This document shows, piece by piece, positions 42,374-46,191 of a stretch of DNA of 49,235 nucleotides. Position 1 is the first letter of the stretch; every line of letters begins with the position of its first letter. Source of the stretch: Acidobacteriota bacterium (GTDB lineage: Bacteria; Acidobacteriota; Terriglobia; Terriglobales; Acidobacteriaceae); contig QIAJ01000130.1 of NCBI GenBank assembly GCA_003225495.1, positions 1-49,235 on the forward strand, read 5' to 3'. The notes beneath the pieces are model-generated. The model was not told the origin of the DNA and searched no databases. It saw nothing but the letters and a program-made list of their open reading frames with translations. The translations under genes were made by a program, and so were the position numbers.

Positions 42374-42429
42374 GAGCAAGGCACTGTCTAGAGGCCGTGC
42401 GTGTTCGCTCGCGCTAAAATCATCGCTAG

Positions 42430-42901
42430 ATGGCAACTAATAAATCCACCCGCGGACACGGGACCGTTTACGTTCGTCTCCAGAAAAACTACTGCTTCGC
42501 CTGGTGGCAATAACAATCCCGACGGCATGCGTTTGCGTTTTACCTATGACGAGGAACGTAACTGCTACGTCTGCCGTTTCCGACTCGATAAACGTTACAC
42601 GGGCCCGCCGGGACACTGCCATGGCGGCATTATCGCGACGATACTCGACGAAGCGATGGGTAAAGTGAATAAGTTGCGGCAGGTGGTCGCGCTCACGTCG
42701 GAAATCACGATCAATTATCTGAAACCGGTTCCGCTAAACAAGCCGCTGCGCGTCGAATCCCGCGAAGTGAAAGTGAAAGGACGCCGCCACGTGAATATGG
42801 CCGAAATACTGAATCAAACTGGGGAAGTACTGGCGAGAGGCCGAGGATTATTTATTGCGATCGATCCGCATCAGATGTTCGCGAAGTTTGTCGACCGCTA
42901 A
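42430..42901 (+). CDS. PaaI-type hotdog thioesterase, frameshifted near 42503
   Basis: The main frame encodes a hotdog thioesterase: NPDGMRLRFTYDEERNCYVCRF, then the signature GPPGHCHGGIIATILDEAMG and the beta part SEITINYLKPVPLNKPLRVESREV. The expected N-terminus is in the +1 frame: ATG 42430 gives MATNKSTRGHGTVYVRLQKN, then YCFA, before running into a stop. Adding back two bases at GCCTGGTGG (as GCCTGCGGTGG) would join it into YCFACGGNNNPDG, the usual cysteine-containing entry. The repaired protein is 157 residues. Without repair the gene could only use GTG 42401 or ATG 42527. Either a sequence error or a recent lesion; thioester hydrolysis is inferred. Confidence 0.82.
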
Positions 42902-42905
42902 CTTC

Positions 42906-42931
42906 GTGTAGGACGGACACTCCTGTCCGTC
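42906..42931 (+). repeat. Dispersed hairpin repeat, copy C
   Basis: Just after the thioesterase stop. It begins GTGTAGGACG and folds perfectly as GACGGACA-CTCC-TGTCCGTC. It faces copy D in inverted orientation. Confidence 0.75.
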
Positions 42932-42981
42932 GGCTTTGCAGCTGCTCTTGCTTTTTTTGCCGAAGTAGGCATGAGTCAACA

Positions 42982-43009
42982 GCATCGGACAAGAGTGTCC
43001 GACCCACAC
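42982..43009 (-). repeat. Dispersed hairpin repeat, copy D (inverted relative to copy C)
   Basis: On the minus strand it reads GTGTGGGTCGGACACTC and so on, folding as TCGGACA-CTCT-TGTCCGA. Copies C and D are complementary over about 28 bases and could fold together across a 50-base loop between the convergent thioesterase and pdxR genes. Confidence 0.75.
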
Positions 43010-43022
43010 CACACAAACAGCA

Positions 43023-44492
43023 TCAAGCCCGTAGCAACGCCGCTAACTCTTCCACTCCGCGGCGTAGCTCACGTGGCTCGACGGCCGCAAATCCCAACAC
43101 GATTCCGTTTCCGCGCACCCGACCATAGGCATAGTGCTGAAGGGGAATGACCTCGACATCCTTTTTTGCGGCTGCGGCGGCAATGTCCTCTGCAACATTT
43201 CCTTCCGGCAACCATCCGATGGTCTGCAATCCCGCCTCGACATTTGAGATTTCCACCAGGCCATCTAACTTTTCCCGCGCACCTTTCAGCAGAACGCCCA
43301 ACCGTTCGGCATACACTTCGCGCATGCGGCGAATATGCCTCGCAAAGTGTCCTTCGCGGATGAAATCGCAGAGAACCGCCTGTCCGAGAAGCGGTGGATG
43401 ATGCGTGCTGACCGACTGCGCCGCAGCGAAAACGTCCACCATCTCAGAGGGAACAACAAGGTACCCGAGTCTCATGGCGGGAAACATGACCGCACTGAAG
43501 CTGCCGCCGAAGATGACGACTCCGGCGCGGTCCAGACCCTGAAGCGCAGGCACGGGTCGCCCGGAGTAGCGATATTCGCTGTCGTAGTCGTCTTCGAAAA
43601 TCACTACGCCGGCTTTGCGCGCCCATTCCAATAACGCCAATCGCCGCCGAAGACTCATCGTTACGCCCAGCGGAAATTGATGCGCGGGCGTGGCATACAC
43701 CAGTTTGGGACGCGGCCAGCGGCGCAGGCCACGTGCGAGGTCCAGCCCCTCGGCGTCCACCGGTACCCCACAAATCTTCGCGCCCGCCGCGTGCAGCACC
43801 GCAGCGGCTCCTGGATACCCCGGCTCTTCCATCCAAGCCTGGTCTCCCGCATTGAGAAAAAGTCGCGCGGTGCGATCAAGTCCCTCCTGCGCGCCGGAAA
43901 CGATCAGCACCTGATCGGCGGTACATTTGACTCCGCGTGAAGTGTTCAGATATTCGGCGACCGCCTCGCGTAACGGCCGATAACCCAAGGTTTCACCGCC
44001 CGCCAGTAATCGGGCCGATGCCTTGCGCAGGCGTCGTGCGGCCACCTGCGCCCATAGGGTCGTCGGAAAAAGATCCAGCGCCGCCTGGTTGGGGCGGAAT
44101 GCTTTCACGGGATGCCTGGCCCGTGAGCGAAACGGCTGCAAGCGCCGAGCGTACGCCGACAACACAATGCGGCGATGCTTCAGTCTCCCTTCCTCCCGTA
44201 GACCCCGCACTTGCAGAAGTTGCTCGGGCAGTACCGTGCTCACATAAGTTCCTGAACCCGTCCGTCCCTCGACATACCCTTCCGATATCAGCTGTTCAAA
44301 CGCCATCACGATCGTGCTGCGCGAGAGTCCGTAGGCCTCCGCAAGATCACGCGTAGCCGGCAGCCGTGCTCCCGGATGCAGCCGTCGTTCGAGGATCGCC
44401 CCCCGCAGCTGTTCATACAGCCAACGATAAAGCGAAGAACCCGCCCTAGGTGCAGGCAGACTTAGCGGCAAGGATGACGTCTGGCGTGGCAT
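43023..44492 (-). CDS. pdxR: MocR-type PLP-responsive regulator of pyridoxal phosphate synthesis
   Basis: A 489-residue MocR/PdxR protein: an N-terminal GntR winged helix (about 20-85; LPATRDLAEAYGLSRSTIVMAFEQLI) and an aminotransferase-fold domain (about 130-485). PLP-site motifs are mostly intact: ATPAHQFPLGV, FEDDYDSEYRYSG (D301-D302-Y303) and the phosphate-side RLGY. However, the segment normally reading GTFSK is GSFSA, so the Schiff-base lysine position is A334 (codon 43491-43493). It is divergent from pdxS with 124 bases between, where MocR-like sites lie, so it very likely controls pdxST. The name follows from that context. Confidence 0.9.
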   Translation of the reverse strand: MPRQTSSLPLSLPAPRAGSSLYRWLYEQLRGAILERRLHPGARLPATRDLAEAYGLSRSTIVMAFEQLISEGYVEGRTGSGTYVSTVLPEQLLQVRGLREEGRLKHRRIVLSAYARRLQPFRSRARHPVKAFRPNQAALDLFPTTLWAQVAARRLRKASARLLAGGETLGYRPLREAVAEYLNTSRGVKCTADQVLIVSGAQEGLDRTARLFLNAGDQAWMEEPGYPGAAAVLHAAGAKICGVPVDAEGLDLARGLRRWPRPKLVYATPAHQFPLGVTMSLRRRLALLEWARKAGVVIFEDDYDSEYRYSGRPVPALQGLDRAGVVIFGGSFSAVMFPAMRLGYLVVPSEMVDVFAAAQSVSTHHPPLLGQAVLCDFIREGHFARHIRRMREVYAERLGVLLKGAREKLDGLVEISNVEAGLQTIGWLPEGNVAEDIAAAAAKKDVEVIPLQHYAYGRVRGNGIVLGFAAVEPRELRRGVEELAALLRA

Positions 44493-44540
44493 AAGTGGTA
44501 TGGAAGAAACGTACTAAATGGACATATCAAGGATACCATT
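44493..44540. promoter_or_regulatory. Putative PdxR operator: repeated RTGGNNAT-like sites
   Basis: Three related sites lie between the divergent genes: AAGTGGTAT (44493-44501) and AAATGGACAT (44516-44525) in direct orientation, and AATGGTATCC on the minus strand (44540-44531). MocR regulators bind spaced direct repeats plus an inverted copy, so these are good candidates. They begin immediately upstream of the pdxR start codon, so binding would also repress pdxR. Confidence 0.5.
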
Positions 44541-44550
44541 CTCCGCCTTA

Positions 44551-44568
44551 TGATCTAGAGGTAGATCA
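44551..44568. promoter_or_regulatory. Short perfect hairpin in the pdxS leader
   Basis: TGATCTA (44551-44557) pairs with TAGATCA (44562-44568) across GAGG. It sits between the putative operator and the pdxS ribosome binding site (GAGGAG). Function unknown. Confidence 0.4.
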
Positions 44569-44616
44569 GTCCATAGTCTCTGGGACGTCCGCCGTCCCTT
44601 TCTGAGGAGAGCGTAT

Positions 44617-45537
44617 ATGTCGAAGAACAATGGCCACAGCACCAGCCCTCGCCTGAAAACAGGCCTTGCCGAAATGCTCAAAGGCGGCGTCATCATGGAC
44701 GTCACTACCGCACAACAGGCTGAAATCGCCCAGAAGGCCGGCGCTGTCGCAGTCATGGCGCTGGAACGCGTCCCGGCGCAGATTCGCGCTGAGGGCGGCG
44801 TGGCTCGCATGGCTTCGCCGAAGATCATTCGCGAAATCATGGCGACCGCCGACATCCCGGTCATGGCCAAGTGCCGCATCGGCCACTTCGCAGAGGCGCA
44901 GATCCTGCAGGAGTTGGGCGTCGATTACATCGACGAATCCGAAGTCCTCACGCCCGCCGACGAAGCCCATCACGTCGACAAGCACGCCTTCACTGTTCCC
45001 TTTGTATGTGGCGCTCGCAACCTGGGAGAAGCCCTGCGTCGGATTGCCGAAGGCGCGGCCATGATCCGTACTAAGGGCGAAGCCGGCACGGGCGACGTCG
45101 TCCACGCCGTGAAGCACATTCGCCAGATCGTACAGGAGATGAAAATTCTCACCGTACTCGGCGAAGAAGAACTCTACGCCAAAGCCAAGGAACATCAGGC
45201 TCCATACGAATTGGTAAGAATCGTCGCGCGCGACGGAAAGCTGCCGGTTCCGAATTTCTCTGCTGGCGGAATAGCCACCCCGGCTGACGCATCCCTCGTG
45301 ATGCAGCTCGGCGCAGAAGCCGTATTCGTCGGTTCCGGAATCTTCATGAAAAATTCAACCGAGTTTGCTGATCCGGTCGAAGCAGAGAAGCGGGCCCGCG
45401 CCATCGTAAAGGCGGCGACGCACTTCAACGATCCTAAAGTCTTACTTGAGGTCAGCGAAGATCTGGTCGGCGCGATGAAGGGCCTGGCCATCTCAGGGCT
45501 CGACGAAGCGCACATGCTGCAGACCAGGGGTTGGTAG
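44617..45537 (+). CDS. pdxS: Pyridoxal 5'-phosphate synthase, lyase subunit
   Basis: A 306-residue TIM-barrel enzyme that builds PLP from ribose 5-phosphate, glyceraldehyde 3-phosphate and the ammonia from PdxT. D28 lies in IMDVTT, K85 in [14 protein letters not shown] and K153 in [13 protein letters not shown], matching the conserved Asp and two active-site lysines. [18 protein letters not shown] and the phosphate loop [29 protein letters not shown] are fully conserved. ATG 44617 has GAGGAG at 44604-44609. It is transcribed with pdxT. Confidence 0.98.
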
Positions 45538-45616: not shown

Positions 45617-45627
45617 GACTGCCGTTT

Positions 45628-46191
45628 ATGAAAATTGGAGTCCTAGCTCTGCAAGGCGATTTCGATGCCCACCGCAAGCGCCTCGAAGAACTCGGCGCGG
45701 AAGTCGTTCTCGTGAAAAAGCCCGAGCAACTCGACGACATAGCAGGACTGGTAATTCCCGGCGGCGAGTCGAGCACGTTTCTCAACCTGCTCGGCAAAGA
45801 GGGCTTCGCGAAGCTTAAAGGTTTCGTTCGCATGAAGCCGACATTCGGTACGTGCGCGGGAGCGATCTTGCTTGCGAACGAGGTTGAGAATCCGAAGCAA
45901 GTCGGACTGGGCGCGCTCGACATCACCATCCGCCGCAACGCCTACGGCCGCCAGGTGGACAGTTCGATCCGCGAAGGGCAGTTTCTTCACGATCCGATCG
46001 AGATGGTCTTCATCCGCGCGCCCAAGATCGAGCGCTTAGGGAAAGATGTAGAAGTAGTCGCCACCGAAGGCCGCGATCCCGTCATGGTTCGGAAAGGGAA
46101 CACCCTCGCGGCAACCTTTCATCCCGAACTCAGCGACGATTCTCGGATTCATCAATACTTTCTGGACCTGGTTACGAACGGCAAGCATTGA
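45628..46191 (+). CDS. pdxT: Pyridoxal 5'-phosphate synthase, glutaminase subunit
   Basis: A 187-residue class I glutaminase supplying ammonia to PdxS. The triad is C76 in FGTCAGAI, H165 and E167 in TFHPELS. The PGGESSTFLNL loop binds glutamine; LDITIRRNAYGRQVDS and FIRAPKIE are PdxT-specific. ATG 45628 is set by KIGVLALQGDFDAH at the N-terminus. The 90-base gap after pdxS carries inverted repeats that may tune the PdxT:PdxS ratio. Confidence 0.97.
   Translation: MKIGVLALQGDFDAHRKRLEELGAEVVLVKKPEQLDDIAGLVIPGGESSTFLNLLGKEGFAKLKGFVRMKPTFGTCAGAILLANEVENPKQVGLGALDITIRRNAYGRQVDSSIREGQFLHDPIEMVFIRAPKIERLGKDVEVVATEGRDPVMVRKGNTLAATFHPELSDDSRIHQYFLDLVTNGKH

Follow-up and report, generated by a model that had tools for sequence, protein, structure and literature searches.

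The window, by which we mean the whole stretch of 49,235 nucleotides that was analysed, carries a gene for a MocR-type regulator that is divergent from pdxS and pdxT, the genes for the two PLP synthase subunits, with a predicted operator between them. The features of this locus, and the codons of the regulator to which we refer below, are as follows.

43023..44492, minus strand: lysine-less MocR/PdxR regulator, 489 aa, GntR-type winged helix-turn-helix (wHTH) plus aminotransferase-like domain
43470..43472, minus strand: codon 341, Arg, equivalent to GabR Arg319 (PLP phosphate)
43491..43493, minus strand: codon 334, GCG (Ala), at the GabR Lys312 position; the plus strand reads cgc
43584..43592, minus strand: codons 301-303 (D301, D302, Y303), D301 equivalent to GabR Asp279 (pyridine nitrogen) and Y303 to Tyr281 (stacking)
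43674..43676, minus strand: codon 273, Phe, equivalent to GabR Phe250
43815..43817, minus strand: codon 226, Tyr, equivalent to GabR Tyr205 (stacking)
43872..43874, minus strand: codon 207, Arg, in the helix following the phosphate-loop residues 200-202
44494..44543, plus strand: predicted PdxR operator with three boxes
44496-44502: operator box 1, TGGTATG
44516-44525: operator box 2, AAATGGACAT, direct to box 1 (TGG to TGG 23 bp)
44533-44538: operator box 3, ATACCA, inverted
44617..45537, plus strand: pdxS, PLP synthase lyase subunit, divergent from the regulator
45625..46191, plus strand: pdxT, PLP synthase glutaminase subunit, ATG start (the open-reading-frame list starts it at a TTG, 45568)

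The N-terminus of the regulator is a GntR-type winged HTH domain (PF00392, 58.5 bits) and its C-terminus a fold-type-I aminotransferase-like (class I/II) domain (PF00155, 65.1 bits); the NCBIfam PdxR model NF052282 scores the protein at 416.6 bits, against a curated cut-off of 320. The best fold matches of its AlphaFold model (mean pLDDT 89) were GabR (4n0b, E 2.9e-39) and PdxR (7zla). The earlier note had proposed that alanine replaces the Schiff-base lysine in an otherwise preserved PLP pocket, and its coordinates, codon count and motif readings were correct, with HQFPLG and EDDYDSEYRY both found in the protein. The segment around residue 334 reads VVIFGGSFSAVMFPAMRLGYLVV, and in HMMER and MAFFT alignments Ala334 shares its column with GabR K312 (GTFSKSLLPGLR) and with the lysine of the Bacillus clausii PdxR (GAFSKSLIPSVR); these alignments confirmed both the replacement and the otherwise intact pocket. 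The codon GCG is two base changes away from AAG. An assembly or sequencing error was ruled out because independent genomes encode this alanine as GCG, GCA, GCC or GCT, and others carry Asp, Glu or Leu. Misalignment and a substitute lysine were likewise ruled out, by the alignments and by the absence of another conserved lysine.

Searches recovered relatives with about 30-87% identity to the window protein. All those with at least 66% identity are without the lysine, and all examined relatives at 62% or below keep it, with the exception of the L069 protein described below. The lysine-less set comprises 18 distinct proteins from at least 10 genera (by genus codes) of one acidobacterial family, their named records being Acidobacteriaceae, Acidobacteriales and Terriglobia MAGs. 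A protein search of 399 genomes of the class found lysine-less relatives confined to the window's family, and a degenerate-codon motif pattern with Ala, Asp or Glu, run over 396 genomes of the phylum, matched only the window and two chance places with an in-frame TGA. In a maximum-likelihood tree of 65 rows, from which column 334 was left out, the 18 proteins form a single clade (support 100/99) nested among lysine-bearing MocRs, indicating descent from these, and Lys is kept in all 47 other members. One change between Lys and non-Lys suffices on this tree, while residue 334 itself needs four changes and is Ala in 10 of the lysine-less proteins, Asp in four, Glu in three and Leu in one. Since these proteins form one clade, the lysine was therefore lost once and the site varied afterwards. 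The suggestion that a clade might share alanine as a fixed variant thus held for the clade and not for the alanine; judged from the alignment, the common trait is the loss of Lys and not the gain of Ala. Elsewhere, the MocR encoded at 4001-5395 of L069 (Rudaea cellulosilytica) reads SLANLLAPGMH, in which Asn takes the place of the lysine and His that of the phosphate arginine; this loss looks independent of, and deeper than, that of the window clade.

The contacts of GabR with PLP include Tyr205, Phe250, Asp279, Tyr281 and Arg319 (PMC6917764 Table 2). Their equivalents Y226, F273, D301, Y303 and R341 are each invariant in all 18 lysine-less proteins, although the branches of the clade sum to 3.36 changes per site, so these pocket residues stand unchanged while residue 334 takes four states. 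Pairs of clade members have dN/dS values of about 0.03-0.10, rough figures as dS is near saturation in many pairs, and in genus pairs the dN/dS of the sensor domain is mostly below that of the HTH domain; these ratios indicate that the regulator is under purifying selection. Apart from residue 334, the changes that mark the clade relative to its sister clade are Cys166 to Gly, Leu207 to Arg, Gly384 to Ala, Ala21 to Leu and Arg15 to Pro. Residue 207 is Arg in 18/18 lysine-less proteins, compared with Leu, Ile or Val in the 47 lysine-bearing ones, and it is possible that this arginine compensates for the lost lysine. As to the carboxylate contacts of GabR, the position of its Arg207, which contacts the GABA carboxylate, is Gly or Arg in the lysine-less clade and Gly in the window protein, and the position of its Arg430 is Arg in 16/17 lysine-less versus 17/47 lysine-bearing proteins. 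At the latter position (codon 453, 43134-43136), His is private to the window protein, the 16 other lysine-less proteins having Arg.

All 18 lysine-less genes stand head to head with an adjoining pdxS, and each of the 17 pdxR-pdxS intergenic regions examined contains a three-box element, in which TGGTATG is followed by AAATGG 23-24 bp on (TGG to TGG, same direction) and then by an inverted CCA box. Two direct boxes plus one inverted box make up the commonest MocR operator (PMC5320631). In leave-one-out matrix scoring, the 17 regions reached 11.6 to 49.5 bits, the next-best 450-bp tile in the window scored -1.3, and the stretches upstream of pdxS scored at most 2.6 in relatives that have no MocR there; the pattern of boxes 1 and 2 occurs in one copy in the 4.5-Mb genome. 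A sigma-70 consensus scan of the pdxR-pdxS intergenic region found no promoter. Because the operator is present in 17/17 regions and missing before pdxS where there is no MocR, it is very probable that the lysine-less protein functions as a regulator of pdxST, and the earlier proposal that pdxST remains its target is supported. In L153, the mocR-pdxS intergenic region extends over 672 bp, and what reads as a small cupin-like gene separates the operator from pdxS.

In 16 of the 18 lysine-less members, the regulator is flanked on the side away from pdxS by a thioesterase gene (PF03061). The slot between the thioesterase gene and pdxS (42401-44617 in the window) varies even inside a genus, being filled by a lysine-less PdxR, filled by a distantly related lysine-bearing MocR, or empty: in L196 and L197, which are of the same genus and lack the regulator, the thioesterase gene runs almost straight into pdxS, and in L148-L150 the slot is occupied by a lysine-bearing MocR of another branch. 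The regulator-operator unit has thus been acquired, lost or replaced while the site stayed the same. Many relatives, some of them of the same genus, have pdxST without an adjoining MocR. The sister clade, in the flanks examined, is not linked to pdxST, so a single stem branch saw both the switch of target and the disappearance of the lysine. The idea that linkage to pdxST forces the loss of Lys was ruled out, as the MocRs of L148-L151, from the same family, adjoin pdxST as in the window yet keep Lys; they lie on a separate, far branch of the tree, and the operator of L148 and L149 is similar to that of the window clade.

Both the internal-aldimine lysine (Lys312) and the pyridine-nitrogen aspartate (Asp279) of GabR are described as conserved across every MocR cluster (PMC6677901); the 18 proteins of the clade all lack the former and all have the latter, as Asp301. 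With respect to PdxR, the divergent pdxST and an operator of direct and inverted boxes were found in silico, while the Schiff-base lysine is absent. The sequence evidence therefore places the window protein among the MocRs by descent and architecture and with PdxR by model score, context and operator, as a lysine-less variant and not a standard PLP-bound PdxR. A literature search of freely accessible papers found no report of a lysine-less MocR clade. The PdxR of B. clausii (7pq9, 7zla, 7zn5, 7zpa, 7zth) likewise combines a wHTH with an aminotransferase-like domain and, together with (by literature) the PdxRs of Corynebacterium glutamicum and Listeria monocytogenes, is divergent from pdxST with direct and inverted boxes; it has the lysine, which in the window clade is replaced by Ala, Asp, Glu or Leu. 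Bacillus subtilis GabR (4n0b, 4mgr, 5t4j), the best fold match, has the same PLP cage residues as the window protein, but it requires PLP bound to Lys312, which GABA turns into an external aldimine, and its Arg207 and Arg430 are replaced by Gly and His in the window protein. The EnuR variant Lys302His, which is a MocR without its Schiff-base lysine as are the members of the window clade, has lost its PLP and represses constitutively, though it is still a dimer (PMC8739950). That change is engineered and locks the repressor, whereas in the window clade the lysine disappeared naturally and long ago, in proteins that are under selection.

Known PdxRs activate pdxST and repress their own gene when in the apo form, PLP being the anti-activator (PMC5320631). 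We consider it slightly better than an even chance that the lysine-less PdxR is a feedback regulator of pdxST with PLP, or a PLP adduct, as its non-covalent ligand. The protein would bind the three-box operator that separates its gene from pdxST and would adjust the transcription of pdxST, and its own, to the supply of vitamin B6, with PLP probably acting as an anti-activator as in its characterised counterparts. The PLP cage of two tyrosines, a Phe, the Asp at the pyridine nitrogen and the Arg at the phosphate is kept, but no internal aldimine can form without the lysine, so PLP or PLP-amine would enter as an ordinary reversible ligand. Unlike GabR or EnuR, such a regulator might do without the lysine, because the ligand of a B6 biosynthesis regulator is PLP itself, which need not be held covalently until a second effector arrives. 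We prefer this non-covalent reading because the pocket is otherwise intact and under selection. The wider proposition, that evolution produced here a B6 sensor free of the lysine, reading PLP or a PLP-amine adduct as a reversible non-covalent ligand after the internal aldimine was discarded in the lineage that became tied to pdxST, seems to us evenly poised. Weighing against non-covalent binding of PLP, EnuR Lys302His shows by analogy that loss of the lysine can abolish PLP binding, the Asp or Glu that would lie beside the aldehyde carbon in 7/18 proteins might hinder PLP, and the kept pocket residues could serve the stability of the fold or the dimer.

The main rival, which builds on the EnuR Lys302His protein being without PLP and locked as a repressor, is a regulator that is blind to PLP and permanently apo-like, acting as a constitutive activator of pdxST (or a controller at a fixed level) and as an autorepressor, with feedback lost or moved elsewhere. 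It would also fit the apo form being the activator in PdxR (PMC5320631), the drift of residue 334 among Ala, Asp, Glu and Leu, and the many relatives, even within the genus, that run pdxST without an adjoining MocR. A blind sensor, however, would be expected to lose its pocket first, and here five PLP contacts are unchanged across 18 divergent proteins in a sensor domain under strong purifying selection, for which reason we regard this reading as rather unlikely. Another ligand in the pocket, be it PMP, PNP or a preformed PLP-amino acid Schiff base, for which the lysine would not be needed, we judge to be unlikely. The retention of a cage for the phosphopyridine ring without the aldimine lysine speaks for it, as do the frequent Arg at the GabR Arg430 position in the lysine-less proteins and the new Arg207 of the clade, which suggests a re-tuned domain. 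Aspartate aminotransferase in which the lysine is changed to alanine still binds both PLP and PMP, which is in line with such a ligand. On the other hand, the His of the window protein itself at the Arg430 position means that a carboxylate contact is not universal, and PdxST makes PLP directly, so that PLP is the natural end product to sense.

The absence of the Schiff-base lysine and the patchy occurrence of the regulator within a genus could also reflect decay, selection having been relaxed once the regulator became unimportant. This explanation is disfavoured by the low dN/dS and by the operator, which is kept at all 17 loci; full-length frames without internal stops and the spread of the clade over its many genera also go against it, and we consider it highly improbable. 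Another lysine could in principle have moved in and allowed covalent binding of PLP to continue through a different residue. The check for such a substitute, which the earlier note had named as a way to overturn its reading, was run, and no lysine position is kept in at least 15 of the 18 lysine-less proteins; continued covalent binding is accordingly very doubtful.

The lysine-less clade sets apart two roles of the MocR PLP lysine, the capture of the cofactor and the exchange of aldimines with an effector. A clade that has dropped the lysine and kept the cage, and that has lysine-bearing sisters, makes it testable whether aldimine chemistry is needed for sensing PLP or only for sensing amines through PLP. 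Furthermore, proteins without the best-known residue of the family can still pass the curated NCBIfam PdxR model.

The lysine-bearing acidobacterial sister MocRs (L009, L035, L087, L168 and others) are 55-62% identical and have the same pocket, but they keep Lys and have no pdxS near, and most lie beside a different set of small genes (read by eye). Small genes that appear DoxX-like and AhpD-like by eye recur alongside the sister MocRs of L036, L087, L090, L099, L103 and L168, and may represent an unstudied regulon of these MocRs.
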